A stretch of 64,000 bases of DNA, from the NCBI RefSeq assembly GCF_040218225.1, contig NZ_JAVJQO010000008.1:62001-126000 (forward strand). The letters are read 5' to 3'. Positions 46,837-54,303 of this stretch are shown piece by piece. A model generated the notes under the pieces. It saw nothing but the letters and a program-made list of their open reading frames with translations, was not told the DNA's origin and did no database searches. The stretch comes from Gracilimonas sp. Its GTDB lineage: Bacteria; Bacteroidota; Rhodothermia; Balneolales; Balneolaceae. A program made the translations under genes and the position numbers. The number at the start of each line of letters is the position of its first letter. The stretch's first letter is position 1.

Positions 46837-46850
46837 TGTAAGCGCTTACA
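46837..46850. promoter_or_regulatory. LacI-family operator in front of the starch locus
   Basis: TGTAAGCGCTTACA is a perfect 14-bp palindrome with the central CG typical of LacI/GalR-family operators. It overlaps GAAATTTG, a degenerate -7 element, and sits 41 bp before the TonB receptor ATG, where a bound repressor would block initiation. The likely regulator is the LacI protein encoded at 57708. Confidence 0.75.
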
Positions 46851-46891
46851 TTAAATTACTTGGAAGAACCGGAATAAATAATGTTGGATTA

Positions 46892-49558
46892 ATGCGCTAT
46901 CTCTTCATACTCTTTTTTAGCCTTATTACCGCGACCGCCTTTGCTCAATATGGAAAAATTCGTGGTATTGTAACAGATTCTGAAACCGGTGAAACAATTA
47001 TTGGAGCTAGTGTCATAATTGAGGGAACTACCAAGGGAGATGCTACCGATGTAAATGGCGAATATATTATTACCGGTGTGGAGTCTGGAAGTTATACTTT
47101 GCTGGTGTCATATATTGGGTATAGTCAAACGGTTGTTCAGGATGTGCGTGTTTCTATTGATTTGACCACAGAAATTAATGTAGAACTCCGTGCCGAAGTG
47201 CTGGAAGGTGAAGAGGTGACCGTAACGGCTGGTCGTGAATTGATCAGGAAGGATGTGACAGCCAGTTTATCTTCGGTTACCAGTGAGCAAATTGAGGCGA
47301 TTCCGGTCGAAAACTTTTCAGAAGTTGTAGAATTACAGGCCGGGGTAGTTGACGGACACTTCAGGGGAGGACGTACAGGAGAAGTTGGGTATTGGGTTGA
47401 TGGAGTCCCGGTTACGGATGTATTTGATGGAAGTCTTTCAGCCGGGGTTGAGAACAGTTCCGTTAAAGAAGTTCAGGTAGTTACCGGGGCTTTTAATGCT
47501 GAGTACGGACAAGCCATGAGTGGTATCGTCAATATTGTAACCAAGGACGGAAGCAATAATTTCACGGGTTCTGTGAATACATTTTTAGGTGATTATGCTT
47601 CAACCCGAACCGACCTGTTCAGAGGTATAAGCCAGATTAGTCCGGTCGCAGTTCGTAATTTTGAGGTGAGTCTTGATGGCCCAATCATTAAAGACAAACT
47701 CTTCTTTTTCGCAAGTGGACGGTATTTTGGTAACGACGGTTGGTTTTCTGGGCGCGAAGTCTTTGATTATAATGATGTAGGTATCAACTCATTAGGTCAG
47801 CTTGGGCTGGTTGATACATTAGGATCAGGCGATTCATCTCTGGTTAACATGAATCCATATGAAAAGTTAAATGGCCAGGTGAAGTTGACCTGGCGTCCGT
47901 TATCCGGGGTTAAGATCTCAGCTAATGGTATTTTTGGAGGTGAAGAATTTCAAAACTACAATCATTCAGCCCAGTTCATGCCGCAGTTTTCCCGTGAGGA
48001 ATTCACCAGAAACTACAGTGCTTATTTAAAAGGGACTCACACCCTTTCAAGTAATACCTATTACGATGTAAGTGTGTCTAATACCTATAAAAAATATGAA
48101 TCATATCTTTTCGAAGACCCTTACGATTCCAGGTATTTGCCCAATGACTATGCAGGCTTCAGGGCAAGTAATATTACTTCCAATTTTATTATCGGAGGGA
48201 CTGATAATGGAAGAACAACCCGCGAGACAAGCACGATCATTGGGAAATTTGATATTACCAGCCAGGTAAATAGTGCAAACCAAATTAAAACCGGGGTTGA
48301 GTACCGGTATCATTCACTTAAGTTCAGCGACAAAACTTCGATTGTAAACAGTCCGAATGGAGGAGTAGACACCCTTTTTGTGAACTCCGCTTATGATGTA
48401 AATCCGATAGAAATTTCAGGATATATTCAGGATAAGGTTGAGATAGGAAGCCTGATTATCAACGCTGGTGTTCGTTTTGATTATTTCGATTCAAACTTTA
48501 AAGTATTTACTGATCCAACTGATCCTGATGTAGTATTTGAGGAACAACGTCCTGATAATGAAGATCTCGTTTTTGAGCCTTCAGAACCTACATGGCAGTT
48601 TAGTCCGAGATTAGGAGTTGCGTTTCCAATTTCTGAAACAGGAGCATTACACTTTTCTTACGGCCACTTTTTCCAGATTCCGAATTTTAGCTTGCTATAT
48701 CAAAACCCGTTTTTCCGTCTTGGCAGTGGCTCAGGTTTAATTGGATTGCTTGGCAATGCCAACCTCAAACCTCAAAAAACAATTAATGGTGAGTTGGGCT
48801 ACAAGCAGGAGCTGAGCAGGACTTCAGCGGTAGAAGTGACGGCATTCTTTAGAGATATAAGGAATCTTGCGGGTACGGCAACCGACCCTACGGTAGTAGA
48901 TGGAACATCCGTTCGTTATGGCATCGTTAAAAATTCTGATTTTGGATTTATAAAAGGGGTCGTGCTAACATTTGATCAAGGGTTCTCTAATGGCCTGTTC
49001 TTTACTGCCGACTATACCTTCCAGATTGCAAAAGGGAATGCATCTGACCCTTCGCAAGCTTACAATGCAGCCGCTGCTAAAACAGAGCTTGAAAAACGAA
49101 TTGTACCTTTGGATTGGGATCAGTTACATACTGTTAACCTGACAGCCAACTACACCTCAACAACAGGGTGGGGTTTTGGCGCTATTTTTAATGCCGGTTC
49201 CGGTTTCCCGTATACTCCCGATTACACACTCCGTACCGGGACTACTCCACCTTCTGTAAACCCTTTGAACAGTCAGCGACGTCCGGCAAAGTATAATCTG
49301 GACCTGAACCTTACCAAAAATATTTCGATGGGCAATGATCAAAGGCTGCAAGTTTATGCCAAGATCGACAATGTGCTCGATACCGGTAACGAGCAGGGTG
49401 TTTTTTCTGATACCGGAACAGCCGAATACTCACTATACAGAAATGAAGACCTGAAGACATTCAGAGGAGATATCAGGTATCTGAATGAGAATTACAACCG
49501 TCCTGATTTTTACAACGAGCCGCGACGAGTGGTTTTTGGAGTCCGATATAATTTTTAA
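46892..49558 (+). CDS. TonB-dependent receptor of the starch/maltodextrin locus
   Basis: 888 residues: signal peptide (MRYLFILFFSLITATAFAQ), CarboxypepD_reg-like domain (GKIRGIVTDSETGETIIGAS...), plug domain (LIRKDVTASLSSVTSEQIEAI, VDGVPVTDVFDGS, FNAEYGQAMSGIVNIVTKDG) and a large beta-barrel ending in RRVVFGVRYNF. It presumably imports maltodextrins with TonB energy. It differs from the usual SusC in length (about 100 residues shorter) and is not followed by SusD. A LacI-type operator precedes it and the next gene begins directly after its stop. Confidence 0.88.
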   Translation: MRYLFILFFSLITATAFAQYGKIRGIVTDSETGETIIGASVIIEGTTKGDATDVNGEYIITGVESGSYTLLVSYIGYSQTVVQDVRVSIDLTTEINVELRAEVLEGEEVTVTAGRELIRKDVTASLSSVTSEQIEAIPVENFSEVVELQAGVVDGHFRGGRTGEVGYWVDGVPVTDVFDGSLSAGVENSSVKEVQVVTGAFNAEYGQAMSGIVNIVTKDGSNNFTGSVNTFLGDYASTRTDLFRGISQISPVAVRNFEVSLDGPIIKDKLFFFASGRYFGNDGWFSGREVFDYNDVGINSLGQLGLVDTLGSGDSSLVNMNPYEKLNGQVKLTWRPLSGVKISANGIFGGEEFQNYNHSAQFMPQFSREEFTRNYSAYLKGTHTLSSNTYYDVSVSNTYKKYESYLFEDPYDSRYLPNDYAGFRASNITSNFIIGGTDNGRTTRETSTIIGKFDITSQVNSANQIKTGVEYRYHSLKFSDKTSIVNSPNGGVDTLFVNSAYDVNPIEISGYIQDKVEIGSLIINAGVRFDYFDSNFKVFTDPTDPDVVFEEQRPDNEDLVFEPSEPTWQFSPRLGVAFPISETGALHFSYGHFFQIPNFSLLYQNPFFRLGSGSGLIGLLGNANLKPQKTINGELGYKQELSRTSAVEVTAFFRDIRNLAGTATDPTVVDGTSVRYGIVKNSDFGFIKGVVLTFDQGFSNGLFFTADYTFQIAKGNASDPSQAYNAAAAKTELEKRIVPLDWDQLHTVNLTANYTSTTGWGFGAIFNAGSGFPYTPDYTLRTGTTPPSVNPLNSQRRPAKYNLDLNLTKNISMGNDQRLQVYAKIDNVLDTGNEQGVFSDTGTAEYSLYRNEDLKTFRGDIRYLNENYNRPDFYNEPRRVVFGVRYNF

Positions 49559-49597
49559 TTGAATACCAATATGCATCTGTTTGATACTCAAAAAAGC

Positions 49598-52500
49598 ATG
49601 AAAAAACTTACATCCAGCTTAGTCGTCTTGTTTGCCGTTCTGTTTTTTGTGCAGGATTATGCAACTGCTCAAAACGTGCCCAATTTCCTCAAAGATCCAC
49701 AATATCGGTCAAGCAGGGAATATAGAAAAAGTGCGGAGTCTGATGGTAACCGTGTGTGGATTACCTTTCACAATACAGGATATCTAGCTGGTGTGGGTGA
49801 AATTCGGGGGCAATGGCCACGGGGTTCTGATGTAAACTATATTGGGGATGTATCTCCGGTCATTTCACTTGAAATACCGGTAGATACGAACGGTGATGGT
49901 CAGCCTGATTCTCTTGTACAGCATTCGGTGACTAATTTTGGTGATAGAGCAGGGCAAAGTATACGTCCCGGACAGACCCAATTCTGGGGCTTTGAGCCTA
50001 TGGGTGGTTTTGCTAACAATGATGGTGATAATGATCGTCCGGCTATTAGTGTGGATGAATCTACCTGGCCAAACAGATGGCCTGACCAACCTACGTGGGT
50101 AGCTCCGGATGGGAGTCCTGAGTGGAATGGGTTCTTTGGGCGGGGTATTCAAAATGCGGATTTTGAAACCTATTTCTGGACCGACGATCACAATGATAAG
50201 TTTATGAATGATCTGGCTAGTCAGGGTGAGATATCACCGTTTGAGCCAGACAGTACAGATCCTTCCAGAGATGGTCAGGGGTTGGCTATGAGTGTCAGAG
50301 GACTTCAGTGGTCCCAGTTCCTGGCCCAGGATGCGATGTTCTATATCTATGAATTAACCAATACCAGTACGACTACTTATCCCCGGGTTTCTGTTGGGTT
50401 AGTAGTTGGGACGGCAGCAGGGGAAAGTGCGGTATCAGGTACTGGTGATACGCAGGATGACCTTGCTTTCTTTGATCAGGCTAACCGAATCGTGTACTCA
50501 TGGGATGCCGATGGTACCAATGCTGATGGAAATGATGTAGGGTATGTAGGGTATGCATTCATGGAAAGTCCCGGTGACCCTGACGACGGCATTGATAACG
50601 ACGGAGACGGAGATCCGAATCAATTAAATATTGATGGCTTTCCTTATGTAGATCCATCCCTGGCAGGACAAGGCAATGTTTTCCAGCCACAGGACTTTCT
50701 TCCCCGAACGCTGAGCGAAGGTGACCCGATTATTCTGATTGACGAAGAAACCGGCGAACGCTCTTTTATCTTTCTGGGAAGTGGTACAACCACGGTTACT
50801 TCTCAGGGCATTGAGTATCAGCTCTCTCCGGGTATGACCCTCCAGGAAACGACAAAGCAAGTTCAGAACCGAACCGAGACGATCACTGTAACAGAGAAAA
50901 ACCTGCTTGACGAAGATTTGGATGGCCTGATTGATGAAGATGAGAAATTACACTTTGAGCGACGTCAGGAAAGAATTACAGGTGGAATTGAACTGTTACC
51001 GCCACTTTATTATAAGAATTACATCGGCTTTGCCGAAGATGTAGGGAATGGCTCGCCAACTCAACAAGATTCTATTAATCATGGGCTTCTGAACCCAATG
51101 ATTGATGAATCAGGGTCCGATGGAATTGATAACGATGGTGACTGGAATCCACTTACCGACGACGTAGGTGCTGATGGTGTATCCGGAACAGGGGATGCCG
51201 GAGAAGGAAATGGCGTTCCTGATATTGGTGAGCCCAATTTTGAAAACCTTGATGTGGATGAAACCGATCAGGTTGGTCTTTCCAGCTTCTATTATTTTAC
51301 TCCTCCGGGCGCTGTTCGTTTGAATGATGACCCACAAGTCTGGGATGCTATGTCTCCCGGTTTCTTTACCCCAAATAACCAGCTTAATGAAGACCGTCAG
51401 GCCGGTGGTGTAGATGGAGACTTTATCTTTAGCTCAGGTTATTTCAGGCTCGAGCCGGGAGAGACCATTCGCTTCTCACTCGCATTAGTATTTGGTGAAG
51501 ATCTCGCAAATATCACCAATAATGTTCGAACTATTCAGGAGATCTATAACAGGAACTACAACTTTGCACGCCCTCCTGAGAAGCCAACCCTTAAAGCAGC
51601 AGTGGGAGATGAGAAAGTGACCCTGTACTGGAATAGCATCGCTGAAGAAAGCATTGATCCGATTTTAGGGCAGGATTTTGAAGGATATAAAATATTCAAA
51701 AGTACAGATCCCAACTTTCTGGACCCGGGCAGAATTACCGATGCCTTTGGAAACGATGCACTTTTGGAACCAATAGCCCAGTTTGATCTTGATAACGGAA
51801 TAAGGGGGTTATGGCAGGCAGCTGAAGATACTTCAACCGGTCAAAACGATCCTTCCTATGTGTTCAACCCTGACCTTGCCGATCGGGTGCGCGGGGTTCC
51901 ATTTTATTTAGGTAATGATACCGGACTCAGGCATTCTTTCGTTGATACCAATGTGGTAAATGGGCAAACCTACTACTATGCCCTTGCTGCATACGATCGT
52001 GGAAGCATAGATTTCTATCCGGCTGAGAATAATTTCTCGGTAACTATTCGTGATGACGGCTCAACCATCACGGATATAAATGTGGTGGAGGTAGAACCTA
52101 GCACTCCTGTTCTGGGATATCAGGCTGGTTCTATTGTTGGCGATGTTGGTCACCCTGAGGGTAATGCTACCGGTGAGGTATTTGTGGAAGTGCTGGACCC
52201 TGTTTTCCTCAAAGAAAATGCGCAATATGAAGTGCAGTTCCCCGGGAATACGTTCCCTGCATCTACTTATTCTGTGATTAATGACGGAGATATTATTCTT
52301 TCAGATATACCACTTTCAGACGCAGAATCGAATATTTTTGATGGTATGAGACTGGCATTCCAGAATGATGAAACCCGTGTAAACAGCGACGAGTCTGGCT
52401 GGGCTGATGGAGATTCATTAAAGATTGACGTGCTGGTTCGTGAAGGTATTCTAAGTAACAGTCCGTTTTGGCAATTTGAAGCACTTGATGCTCCATACGA

Positions 52501-53263
52501 CTATAGTATTGAGTTTTTCGATCAAGCGGTAGCTACTTCAATTGACACCACTAATGGTACAGGTCAAAACGCTCCTAACACAACATCGACACCTGTCAAT
52601 TTTAAAATTACTAATAGCGTAACTGGACAAGAAGTGCCATTTGCTCTCGATCAAACAAACTTTAGAGCTAATAATGAATTTGAAAATGGTGCTTCTTATA
52701 GTGAGTTAGGTGATTATGAGTATATATATATATACGATAGCTTTGGAGATTCCCTGAGTCCGGTCTTTGAATTCAGGATTGTATATGAGACAGTGCTTGG
52801 ACAGGGCCGGGTGCCTACTGGTGAATTGCCGGAAGCCGGTGATGTCTATGAGATAAAAACGTACAAGTCTTTTGGTTCCAGCGATACATACTCTTTTACA
52901 ACCAAATCATCAAATGTGGATAACGAAACCGCCAAAGACCAGCTAGATGAGGTAAGGGTTGTACCGAATCCATATGTGAGCGCAGCCAGCTGGGAAGGAA
53001 AACTACCACCGACTATTACCAGTGGCCGAGGCGAACGCAAAATTATGTTTCAGAATGTGCCGGCAGGGTCAACGATCAGGATCTTTACTGTTCGTGGAGA
53101 ACTGGTACGCGAACTTAATCATGACGATTCCATAGACCGAGGAGTAGTAGAATGGGATTTACGAACAAGAGAAAATCTTGATGTAGCGTATGGAGTTTAC
53201 TATTACCACCTGAAAGCTCCGGGCGTAGGTACTAAAACAGGAAAAATTGCACTTATTAAATAA
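49598..53263 (+). CDS. Giant secreted protein with Asp-rich loops, FnIII domain and T9SS-like tail
   Basis: 1221 residues from the ATG at 49598, chosen because the signal peptide (MKKLTSSLVVLFAVLFFVQD...) begins there; upstream in-frame TTG/ATG codons are possible. Asp/Asn-rich calcium-loop-like segments recur (DDGIDNDGDGDPNQLNIDG, DEDLDGLIDEDE, SDGIDNDGDWNP). An FnIII domain (about 660-820, PEKPTLKAAVGDEKVTLYWN ... QTYYYALAAYDRG) is followed by beta-rich regions. The C-terminus (VRVVPNPYVSAASWEGK ... GVYYYHLKAPG ... GKIALIK) is a divergent sorting tail. Its place between a TonB receptor and a PorV-like barrel suggests a surface lid or ligand-capturing component instead of SusD. No enzyme motif is seen. 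Confidence 0.75.
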   Translation: MKKLTSSLVVLFAVLFFVQDYATAQNVPNFLKDPQYRSSREYRKSAESDGNRVWITFHNTGYLAGVGEIRGQWPRGSDVNYIGDVSPVISLEIPVDTNGDGQPDSLVQHSVTNFGDRAGQSIRPGQTQFWGFEPMGGFANNDGDNDRPAISVDESTWPNRWPDQPTWVAPDGSPEWNGFFGRGIQNADFETYFWTDDHNDKFMNDLASQGEISPFEPDSTDPSRDGQGLAMSVRGLQWSQFLAQDAMFYIYELTNTSTTTYPRVSVGLVVGTAAGESAVSGTGDTQDDLAFFDQANRIVYSWDADGTNADGNDVGYVGYAFMESPGDPDDGIDNDGDGDPNQLNIDGFPYVDPSLAGQGNVFQPQDFLPRTLSEGDPIILIDEETGERSFIFLGSGTTTVTSQGIEYQLSPGMTLQETTKQVQNRTETITVTEKNLLDEDLDGLIDEDEKLHFERRQERITGGIELLPPLYYKNYIGFAEDVGNGSPTQQDSINHGLLNPMIDESGSDGIDNDGDWNPLTDDVGADGVSGTGDAGEGNGVPDIGEPNFENLDVDETDQVGLSSFYYFTPPGAVRLNDDPQVWDAMSPGFFTPNNQLNEDRQAGGVDGDFIFSSGYFRLEPGETIRFSLALVFGEDLANITNNVRTIQEIYNRNYNFARPPEKPTLKAAVGDEKVTLYWNSIAEESIDPILGQDFEGYKIFKSTDPNFLDPGRITDAFGNDALLEPIAQFDLDNGIRGLWQAAEDTSTGQNDPSYVFNPDLADRVRGVPFYLGNDTGLRHSFVDTNVVNGQTYYYALAAYDRGSIDFYPAENNFSVTIRDDGSTITDINVVEVEPSTPVLGYQAGSIVGDVGHPEGNATGEVFVEVLDPVFLKENAQYEVQFPGNTFPASTYSVINDGDIILSDIPLSDAESNIFDGMRLAFQNDETRVNSDESGWADGDSLKIDVLVREGILSNSPFWQFEALDAPYDYSIEFFDQAVATSIDTTNGTGQNAPNTTSTPVNFKITNSVTGQEVPFALDQTNFRANNEFENGASYSELGDYEYIYIYDSFGDSLSPVFEFRIVYETVLGQGRVPTGELPEAGDVYEIKTYKSFGSSDTYSFTTKSSNVDNETAKDQLDEVRVVPNPYVSAASWEGKLPPTITSGRGERKIMFQNVPAGSTIRIFTVRGELVRELNHDDSIDRGVVEWDLRTRENLDVAYGVYYYHLKAPGVGTKTGKIALIK

Positions 53264-53277
53264 TGAAAGGTCAAACA

Positions 53278-54303
53278 ATGAACATAGTTAAGGCAGTCAA
53301 GTACTGTTTGTTGTTAGCAACCAGCATGGTTTTAACAACAAATGTGCAGGCACAAGATAAAGTTGGAACTACATCAGCTGCGTTTTTGAGCATTTCTTCT
53401 GGTGCCAGAGCTAGTGCAATGGGAGGAGCTTATGTAGCTATTGCTAACGATGGAAGCGCCATGTTTTGGAATCCTGCCGGCATGGCTCAGCTTGAAAGCA
53501 ACACCGTTACTTTTTCGAATATGAACTGGTTTCTGGATTCCCAGATTCAGGATGCTTCGGTAGTTATTCATGGGGGAGATATTGGAAACTTTGCCCTTTC
53601 CGTGCGTGCTATTGATCATGGTGAAATCGAAGTGAGAACCATTGATATACCCGAAGGTACCGGGGAAGTTTTTAGTCCGACCAATCTTGCAGTTGCGGTT
53701 TCCTATTCCCGGTTCATAACCGATCAGTTTTCTATAGGAGCAAATACAAAGTTTGTACAGGAAAAAATCTGGAATGAATCAGCAACCGGCTTCGCTGTTG
53801 ATCTTGGAGTTCTGTATCGAACAAGTTTTAAAAACCTGAGAATTGGGATGTCTATGACCAATTTCGGGAATGAAATGCAAATGACCGGAGATGACCTTCG
53901 CCAGCCTATTGATGTGGATGAAGGTATAAATGGTAATAACGATCGGAACGAAGGATACCTGGCAACCGACTCCTGGCCCATGCCACTATTATTTAAGGTT
54001 GGGGTTGCTATTGATGCTTTGGATATCGAGAGCCATAAAATAGAATTTGCGATCGACGCGAAGCACCCCAGTGATAATTCCGAAAGCTTAGATATTGGGA
54101 TTGAATATGGATTCAACGACATGGTTTTTTTCAGAGGAGGGTACCGGAGCTTCCTTTCCAGCCAAACGGAAGATCAAAGTATTACCGCTGGCTTCGGTTT
54201 GAAGTATGATTTTAATGGAATAGGGGCAAACTTTGGAGCCACTTATATGACTCATGAGTACCTGGAAGATCCTATTCTCTGGACATTACAAATTGATTTT
54301 TAA
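53278..54303 (+). CDS. PorV/PorQ-family outer-membrane barrel
   Basis: 341 residues from the ATG at 53278, which has AAAGG eight bases upstream; an ATG overlapping the previous stop (53263, TAATG) would add five residues. After the signal (...LTTNVQAQ), the FadL-like N-terminus FLSISSGARASAMGGAYVAIANDGSAMFWNPAG is the hallmark of PorV/PorQ and UPF0164 proteins. Antiparallel barrel strands follow to the terminal ...DPILWTLQIDF. PorV carries T9SS substrates to the attachment complex; a copy inside a polysaccharide locus suggests a dedicated partner for the sorted proteins around it. Confidence 0.82.
   Translation: MNIVKAVKYCLLLATSMVLTTNVQAQDKVGTTSAAFLSISSGARASAMGGAYVAIANDGSAMFWNPAGMAQLESNTVTFSNMNWFLDSQIQDASVVIHGGDIGNFALSVRAIDHGEIEVRTIDIPEGTGEVFSPTNLAVAVSYSRFITDQFSIGANTKFVQEKIWNESATGFAVDLGVLYRTSFKNLRIGMSMTNFGNEMQMTGDDLRQPIDVDEGINGNNDRNEGYLATDSWPMPLLFKVGVAIDALDIESHKIEFAIDAKHPSDNSESLDIGIEYGFNDMVFFRGGYRSFLSSQTEDQSITAGFGLKYDFNGIGANFGATYMTHEYLEDPILWTLQIDF

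Follow-up and report, generated by a model that had tools for sequence, protein, structure and literature searches.

The window analysed here, a 64,000-nucleotide (nt) stretch of the genome of Gracilimonas sp. (assembly GCF_040218225.1, contig NZ_JAVJQO010000008.1, positions 62,001 to 126,000), contains the starch operon of a marine bacterium, in which genes for a TonB-dependent receptor (TBDT), a 1,221-amino-acid (aa) surface protein (the giant) and a PorV-family barrel are closely packed and SusD is absent. We found that this trio, hereafter the cassette, shares its site, its putative operator and its enzyme surroundings with SusC-SusD-SusE of close relatives. We consider it likely that a glycan-capture or lid protein, delivered by the type IX secretion system (T9SS) and kept next to the TonB transporter by a PorV-like barrel of its own, here replaces SusD. 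The tight spacing of receptor, giant and barrel in a starch locus had been noted in a preliminary description of the window, and is borne out by the open reading frames (ORFs) and their domains. That description had also named a SusD in the locus as one of two findings that would speak against it; none is encoded there (PF07980), and the two matches in the genome, on contigs C6 and C7, each adjoin a TonB-receptor-sized ORF.

The strongest evidence is exchange at one site. GH13a, a glycoside hydrolase gene of the operon, was searched for in 57 genomes of the same family, and its surroundings were retrieved at 20 loci; eight congeners (G000 to G007) were compared, the genus drafts G008 and G009 being left out. 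An ispG orthologue, 90-95% identical to that of the window, occupies the same place in all seven others compared (G001 to G007), and the LacI-family regulator that flanks the exchange site is 82-93% identical to the window's. Between these two genes, five of the eight congeners (G000, G001, G004, G005 and G007) hold TBDT, giant, PorV and a carbohydrate-binding module (CBM) protein; G003 holds a second cassette lineage (type ii, the window's being type i), 55% identical to that of L089, behind a 568-aa PPIC-type peptidyl-prolyl isomerase (PPIase); and G002 and G006, from whose genomes the giant is absent, hold SusC-SusD-SusE. Thus one genomic site occurs in three states among eight congeners. 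The window reads ispG - TBDT - giant - PorV - CBM protein - LacI - GH13a - GH13b, followed beyond its end (L027) by GH13c, which is SusG_C-like (PF00128, PF23915), and a sugar transporter of the MFS type (PF07690); G002 and G006 read ispG - SusC - SusD - SusE - LacI - GH13a - GH13b - GH13c - MFS. The CBM protein sits at the SusE position, and a relative is likewise placed in the other type i loci. The SusC proteins of the two congeners are genuine (TIGR04056, 753 and 749 bits against a cut-off of 368), as are their SusD (PF07980, 131 and 115 bits; the starch-type model NF033071 gives 436 bits in L220, under its cut-off of 725) and SusE (PF14292, 76 and 68 bits). Four g6 genomes (L225 to L228) also carry SusC, SusD and SusE, each verified, beside GH13a; in L234 the cassette is not in view. 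Because of this same-site exchange, functional equivalence of the cassette to SusC-SusD-SusE is strongly suggested.

The two modules also share a putative regulatory element. A perfect palindrome, TGTAAGCGCTTACA, lies ahead of the operon, and the preliminary description had placed the start of its feature exactly on the palindrome's first base. It is the sole site at one mismatch or fewer in the 3.54-Mb genome (its backwards control gave 0), and both it and a weaker palindrome upstream are retained in all five congeneric loci aligned, the window included. The site is present, at one mismatch or fewer, in 36 of 74 relative and GH13a loci (1.34 Mb); 30 of these 36 show a GH13a gene, and in the other six (L076, L078, L079, L085, L092 and L095) the stretch ends soon after the cassette, GH13a not being in it. 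The site precedes the first starch-operon gene under either module: it stands 40-43 nt before the type i TBDT, 42 nt before the type ii PPIase-TBDT pair in G003 (5-205 nt in others), and 64-66 nt before SusC in the genus (L220 and L221; 83-314 nt in g6). In L063 and L092 the stretch from site to TBDT has no assigned ORF start, and in loci with neither module the site precedes LacI or another small ORF. An upstream-site control found a site at two mismatches or fewer before 23 of 272 unlabelled genes; as the set includes 17 PPIase-sized genes that come first in these same operons, this control was disregarded. The palindrome is a likely operator, to which the LacI protein presumably binds. A scan for sigma-70 promoters returned 20 sites against 24.1 in shuffled sequences, that is, no excess.

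The cassette is conserved well beyond the genus. The giant was matched in 39 of 57 genomes searched, its own included (E <= 1e-10), and 54 regions, picked from the listed matches and not exhaustive, were fetched. Among 56 giant-labelled ORFs in them, 52 reach at least 986 aa, and all 52 have a same-strand TBDT directly upstream (in L084 a 442-aa ORF 1,959 nt distant); a PorV-like ORF lies directly downstream of all 49 that are not at a contig end, and gaps within cassettes are mostly tens of bases or less. The remaining four ORFs are two short second giants and two distant relatives (671 and 685 aa) without a cassette. The second giants, of 946 and 935 aa, stand in tandem in L076 and L096, behind the PorV of the first cassette. 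In named genomes, at least 583 stretches matched, of which 497 proved to be relatives; the best 79 loci were retained, and their 75 giants of at least 900 aa comprise 52 in the exact order TBDT-giant-PorV, five in the order TBDT-PorV-giant, seven with a TBDT and then a contig end, two with a contig end and then PorV, and nine others, among which L134 (twice), L158 and L183 are split or tandem giants. The reordered loci are L130, L140, L142, L154 and L176, with KSB1, Neomarinimicrobiota, Calditrichota and Ignavibacteriales among them. Taxa carrying the cassette include Balneola, Ignavibacteria, Melioribacter, Calditrichota, KSB1, Neomarinimicrobiota, Cloacimonetes, Stahlbacteria, Chlorobiota and Kryptonia. 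A weak test, single-sequence phmmer at E <= 1e-8 over the six genes on each side of the giant, recovered no SusD relative in any of 52 relative and 66 named cassette loci. Over 95 cassettes, TBDT, giant and PorV diverge in step (correlation of pairwise distances, r 0.93, 0.90 and 0.88; permutation maximum 0.07), and they still do so among divergent cassette pairs (0.72-0.81), as expected of a jointly inherited unit. The three-gene module proposed as fixed in the preliminary description is therefore upheld by the linkage counts among relatives, and the co-occurrence of the three families near carbohydrate genes, which it had put forward as a check, was recovered across related genomes. Co-function of the trio is well supported.

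The receptor does not qualify as a SusC. The window TBDT consists of CarboxypepD_reg, plug and barrel domains, and reaches only 65.8 bits against the 368.25 of TIGR04056, with a match confined to residues 22-146; the SusC signature TIGR04057, which gives 64.7-67.9 bits in the six SusC tested, has no match in it at E <= 0.001. In a receptor tree, a quick one with some long branches for which 43 of the 109 available cassette TBDTs were sampled, cassette TBDTs form one clade (SH-aLRT 98) and eight SusC sequences another (100); inside the former, the type i lineage of the window lies apart from type ii (L078, L091, L095, L164 and L174). On these three grounds the receptor is not SusC, and the SusC-like label of the preliminary description was abandoned.

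The giant was correctly described as having 1,221 residues if translation begins at ATG 49598, where the signal peptide also begins; the ORF is open from TTG 49559 (1,234 aa), so that the gap to the TBDT is 0 nt (TTG) or 39 nt (ATG), and it overlaps the PorV ORF by one base. Its N-terminus, MKKLTSSLVVLFAVLFFVQDYATAQ, has by eye no cysteine lipobox, and so is not the lipoprotein signal peptide of a SusD. It matches no Pfam family at E <= 0.001, hence neither PF07980 nor PF14322, and no curated family above cut-off; in 34 giants scanned, CHU_C was the sole family listed, in six members. An AlphaFold2 model of the N-terminal domain (626 residues, from 84 sequences) reached a pLDDT of 87.7 and a pTM of 0.88, that of the whole mature protein a pLDDT of 70.7. 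All 50 listed VIA-align rows for this domain are carbohydrate-active proteins, led by dextran dextrinase (Z 19.1 over 252 residues, 3.0 A), glucodextranase (18.2) and glucoamylase (17.9), with members of GH94, GH116, GH149 and GH65 among the further matches and N-domains of carbohydrate-active enzymes at Z 15-19 overall. The aligned portions we take to be the supersandwich N-domains, not the catalytic barrel. The domain is thus confidently modelled as the beta-supersandwich of glucoamylases and phosphorylases, a claim that depends on VIA-align, which re-aligns only the list of Foldseek, because the Foldseek matches for this domain all lie above E 0.001 (best 1.7e-3). With the full giant, Foldseek gave no useful global match (query TM <= 0.08 among the rows listed), and a search of PDB sequences with the giant profile gave 0 matches at E <= 0.01. 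The calcium-loop-like repeats of the preliminary description are present, as an insertion within this domain: DxDxDG motifs stand at mature residues 308 and 413, and D, G and E columns are near-invariant in relatives at residues 308-312 and 497-535. At the other end, the predicted tail aligns with the C-terminal domain of PorZ (5m11; Z 10.9, rmsd 2.1, 87 residues, 26% identity) and would have the Ig-like C-terminal fold that is a trait of type A cargo.

The barrel, as previously proposed, is of PorV/PorQ type: it clears the family model NF033709 comfortably (Table 1) and falls under the equivalog cut-offs of both PorV (NF033710, 99.8 against 250 bits) and PorQ (117.2 against 220). In PDB, its family profile matches a single sequence at E <= 0.001, the PorV of the T9SS translocon (6h3i_F), and a better match to the family model than the cassette barrel is found elsewhere in the genome, on C6. 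The genome also encodes SprA (TIGR04189, 1,535 bits against 200), to which the search for T9SS components was limited. According to two T9SS papers (PMC12618676, PMC9143113), shuttle barrels receive the cargo domains: PorV serves type A, and a cognate PorP/SprF serves type B. Such barrels are often encoded beside their cargo. Other PorV-linked receptors of the window's genome were observed: L017:7236-13568 holds a TBDT, a 706-aa sorted-looking protein and a PorV-like protein, and in L018:8509-19497 a TBDT and a PorV-like gene are adjacent, with a 723-aa protein with a giant-like tail nearby and a T9SS-type protein and lipoprotein-like ORFs in the surroundings. These were not counted as cassettes, their receptors lying outside the cassette clade on long branches.

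Near sampled cassettes lie, among others, genes for amylases, a xylanase, a mannan phosphorylase, sugar regulators and permeases. In 37 of 52 relative and 15 of 66 named loci, a LacI- or GntR-LacI-type regulator is found no more than six genes from the giant. By Pfam, L066 has GHL10 glycosidases, CBM9 and a sodium:solute symporter; L241 has LacI, GH10 and CBM9; L242 has LacI, an ABC solute-binding protein and a GH130 mannan phosphorylase, together with a T9SS-tailed protein whose CBM4_9 match is under its cut-off; and L160 has GH13. The preliminary view of a starch system thus holds for the window and is too narrow for the cassette, which is a glycan system: it is also found in loci for xylan, mannan and other glycans, occurs in two gene orders and is often accompanied by a PpiC-type PPIase. 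A relative of this PPIase is encoded, mostly two genes away from the giant, in 34 of 52 relative and 22 of 66 named loci; the PPIC domain was checked in L082, L088, L089, L137, L169 and L241, and is slightly under cut-off in L186. The proteins, mostly of 510-610 aa, are encoded before the TBDT (L062, L088, L089, L137) or after PorV (L082, L100, L169), with a further case at L241:18057-19823; the window's own lineage has no PPIase gene adjacent to the cassette. This PPIase is possibly a dedicated folding factor, a role made plausible by the report, in a study of the beta-barrel assembly machinery, of a surface subunit of PPI fold and also of a PPI in the T9SS translocon (PMC12611786).

Table 1. 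Annotated features of the starch locus, in window coordinates
Feature	Start	End	Strand	Remarks
ispG (gcpE)	45373	46605	+	PF04551 GcpE 381.7 bits; upstream flank, outside the system
Weaker palindrome, 2 mismatches	46619	46632	+	217-218 nt upstream of the main palindrome
Perfect palindrome TGTAAGCGCTTACA	46837	46850	+	41 nt before TBDT start; likely LacI-family operator
TBDT, 888 aa	46892	49558	+	PF13715, PF07715, PF00593 above cut-off
Giant surface protein, 1,221 aa from ATG 49598	49598	53263	+	signal peptide by eye; mature protein 1,196 aa
Giant: predicted N-terminal beta-supersandwich domain with calcium-loop insertion	49685	51562	+	mature residues 5-630
Giant: calcium-loop-like segment	50579	51277	+	mature residues about 303-535
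Giant: predicted fibronectin III (FnIII)-like domain	51566	52105	+	mature residues 632-811; VIA matches to FnIII chains, Z 9-10
Giant: predicted C-terminal T9SS-type sorting domain	52916	53260	+	mature residues 1082-1196
PorV/PorQ-family barrel, 346 aa	53263	54303	+	NF033709 223.9 bits, cut-off 90
T9SS-sorted protein with LTD and CBM20/CBM48-like domains	54423	57629	+	PF18962, PF00932, PF02922, PF00686 above cut-off
LacI-family regulator of the locus	57669	58721	+	PF00356, PF13377
GH13a, T9SS-sorted GH13	58714	61623	+	PF00128, PF02922, PF18962
GH13b, second GH13	61613	64000	+	open ORF, ends 3 bases past the window; PF00128 155.5 bits

We also asked how giant and SusD are distributed over 394 genomes of the phylum, calling a giant strong at E <= 1e-100, a line set after viewing the list, and a genome SusD-rich at five or more matches, five being the most that were scored; the giant was scored by two candidates per genome and the counts therefore reflect presence rather than copy number. 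A strong giant occurs in 138 genomes and at least five SusD in 119, with both in 7, the giant only in 131, SusD-richness only in 112 and neither in 144 (odds ratio 0.069, P = 8e-18 by Fisher's exact test, kinship ignored). At a threshold of one SusD the corresponding numbers are 69, 69, 139 and 117 (P = 0.46), and a simple exclusion by presence or absence was rejected. Giant-bearing genomes are thus rarely SusD-rich, and the association is only with the number of SusD. Among 45 genomes of the organism's own family, the 22 with a giant have from none to at least five SusD matches (one has at least five), and 22 of the 23 without it have at least five.

In the reading we favour, the trio would form the outer-membrane part of starch or maltodextrin uptake and do the job of SusC-SusD-SusE in close relatives. 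The adjacent PorV-family barrel may, by analogy with T9SS shuttles, be the giant's dedicated shuttle, its membrane anchor or both; the supersandwich domain, stiffened by the calcium-loop insertion, would capture or cap glycan above the TBDT, which would import it with TonB energy. The T9SS-sorted CBM protein and surface GH13 would bind and cut starch, further enzymes and the MFS permease would complete utilisation, and the LacI protein would control the set. Synteny, tree congruence, fold and T9SS precedent are the basis on which we infer that the giant is a lid over the TBDT and the barrel its partner in export or anchoring; T9SS export and glycan binding of the giant are likewise inferred.

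An alternative is that the TBDT imports maltodextrins by itself and that the giant is a co-regulated T9SS surface adhesin or scaffold, resembling SusE/F in role and anchored by the PorV-like partner, with no lid. T9SS adhesins paired with cognate barrels are known from published work (PMC12618676, PMC9143113), and PorV lies between TBDT and giant for five of the 75 giants in named genomes; however, direct adjacency of the TBDT in every one of the 52 sampled relatives, co-divergence at r 0.93, the single clade of cassette TBDTs and block exchange for SusC-SusD all argue otherwise, and we regard this alternative as unlikely. The N-domain fold, shared with the N-domains of GH15, GH65, GH94 and GH116, could also mean that the giant is an enzyme, a diverged relative of phosphorylases or glucoamylases that cuts glycans at the surface. 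Enzymes of these families carry an additional (alpha/alpha)6 catalytic barrel, whereas giant models have no long helical domain and the 34 giants have no glycosidase family match at E <= 0.01, which makes an enzyme highly improbable. Scarcely more credit is due to the barrel being a FadL-like diffusion channel for sugars or hydrophobic compounds, served by the giant: its FadL/Toluene_X match in Pfam is weak (26.3 bits, under the cut-off of 29.7), whereas its match to the PorV/PorQ family is full and its only sequence relative found in PDB is the translocon PorV. The two SusCDE congeners, moreover, have 4 and 7 PorV-family matches, the lowest counts; each of the six others has 9-16.

Several observations weigh against replacement of SusD by a T9SS-delivered lid, and our results need to be read with them in mind. 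Co-inheritance explains the distance correlation as well as contact would, and the match of the N-domain speaks to fold, not to binding, in a model. The curated type A tail model TIGR04183 is unmatched by the window giant at E <= 0.01 and matched by six of 34 giants, so that the sorting domain rests on structure: the tail of the preliminary description stands by its likeness to PorZ but not by that model. Cassette PorVs form no clean clade, one other PorV of the window's genome falling inside. In named genomes the giant is not immediately followed by a PorV in L139, nor immediately preceded by a labelled TBDT in L116, L128, L145 and L184, several of these five being short contigs or contig ends. 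The starch-labelled type ii loci L232, L236 and L237 lack the palindrome at one mismatch or fewer, in fetched regions that start inside the preceding gene. Six of the 20 GH13a loci fetched (L222 to L224 and L229 to L231, some on short contigs) show LacI-GH13a with neither module, and a module is therefore not strictly required there. Finally, the anticorrelation of giant and SusD vanishes at one or more SusD and ignores phylogeny, and G003 carries both the giant and at least five SusD matches.

Compared with known systems, the cassette resembles SusC-SusD-SusE in pairing TonB-energised outer-membrane import with a surface partner and, among congeners, in locus position, neighbours and operator, but its receptor lies outside the SusC clade and there is no SusD lipoprotein, its partner being a beta-supersandwich protein with signal peptide and sorting tail, accompanied by a PorV-family barrel and often a PPIase. 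Type B cargo of the T9SS with PorP/SprF (SprB-SprF; PG1035-PorP) likewise places a large surface protein next to its own barrel, a reported shuttle and anchor (PMC12618676, PMC9143113), whereas the cassette barrel is of the PorV family, the tail is like that of PorZ and type A, and a TBDT is constant upstream. With the T9SS shuttle PorV and with PorQ the cassette barrel shares a family (NF033709), but it lies under both equivalog cut-offs and occurs as one copy per cassette. In Rhodothermus marinus, the xylan locus Rmar_1067-1073 comprises LacI, GH43, GH10, a TBDT (1070), a hypothetical protein with a sorting domain (1071) and a hypothetical protein (1072); judged from the published table, Rmar_1070-1072 is probably an unrecognised instance of the cassette, and in the portion of that paper available such a system is unnamed and a nearby SusCD pair is discussed as the transporter of the polysaccharide utilisation locus (PUL) (PMC6987092). 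In agreement with the preliminary description, no account of a TBDT-giant-PorV trio was found in the literature searched, subscription papers and preprints lying outside its scope. What is already known is TonB-driven glycan import with a surface partner; here neither that partner nor its mode of delivery nor the barrel is related to SusD.

In textbooks, glycan uptake in Bacteroidota is recognised by SusCD, and searches for PULs look for SusC/SusD pairs. We lean towards the view that the TonB-dependent glycan importers of the Fibrobacterota-Chlorobiota-Bacteroidota (FCB) group include a second class, as yet unnamed, in which SusD is replaced by a supersandwich protein that the T9SS secretes and that its own PorV-family barrel holds, often with the help of a dedicated PPIase; this class would be the main PUL transporter in many SusCD-poor lineages, and whole modules of the two classes would change places at fixed regulatory sites. 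Should the cassette do the job of SusCD, PUL prediction overlooks a large share of the machinery for uptake in Ignavibacteria, Calditrichota, KSB1, Marinimicrobia and Balneolales, lineages in which the giant has no curated family name; the T9SS would be linked directly to nutrient import, the expanded PorV-like barrels would gain a role, and the genus, in which SusCDE and the cassette replace each other at a single locus, would offer a natural experiment on their interchangeability.

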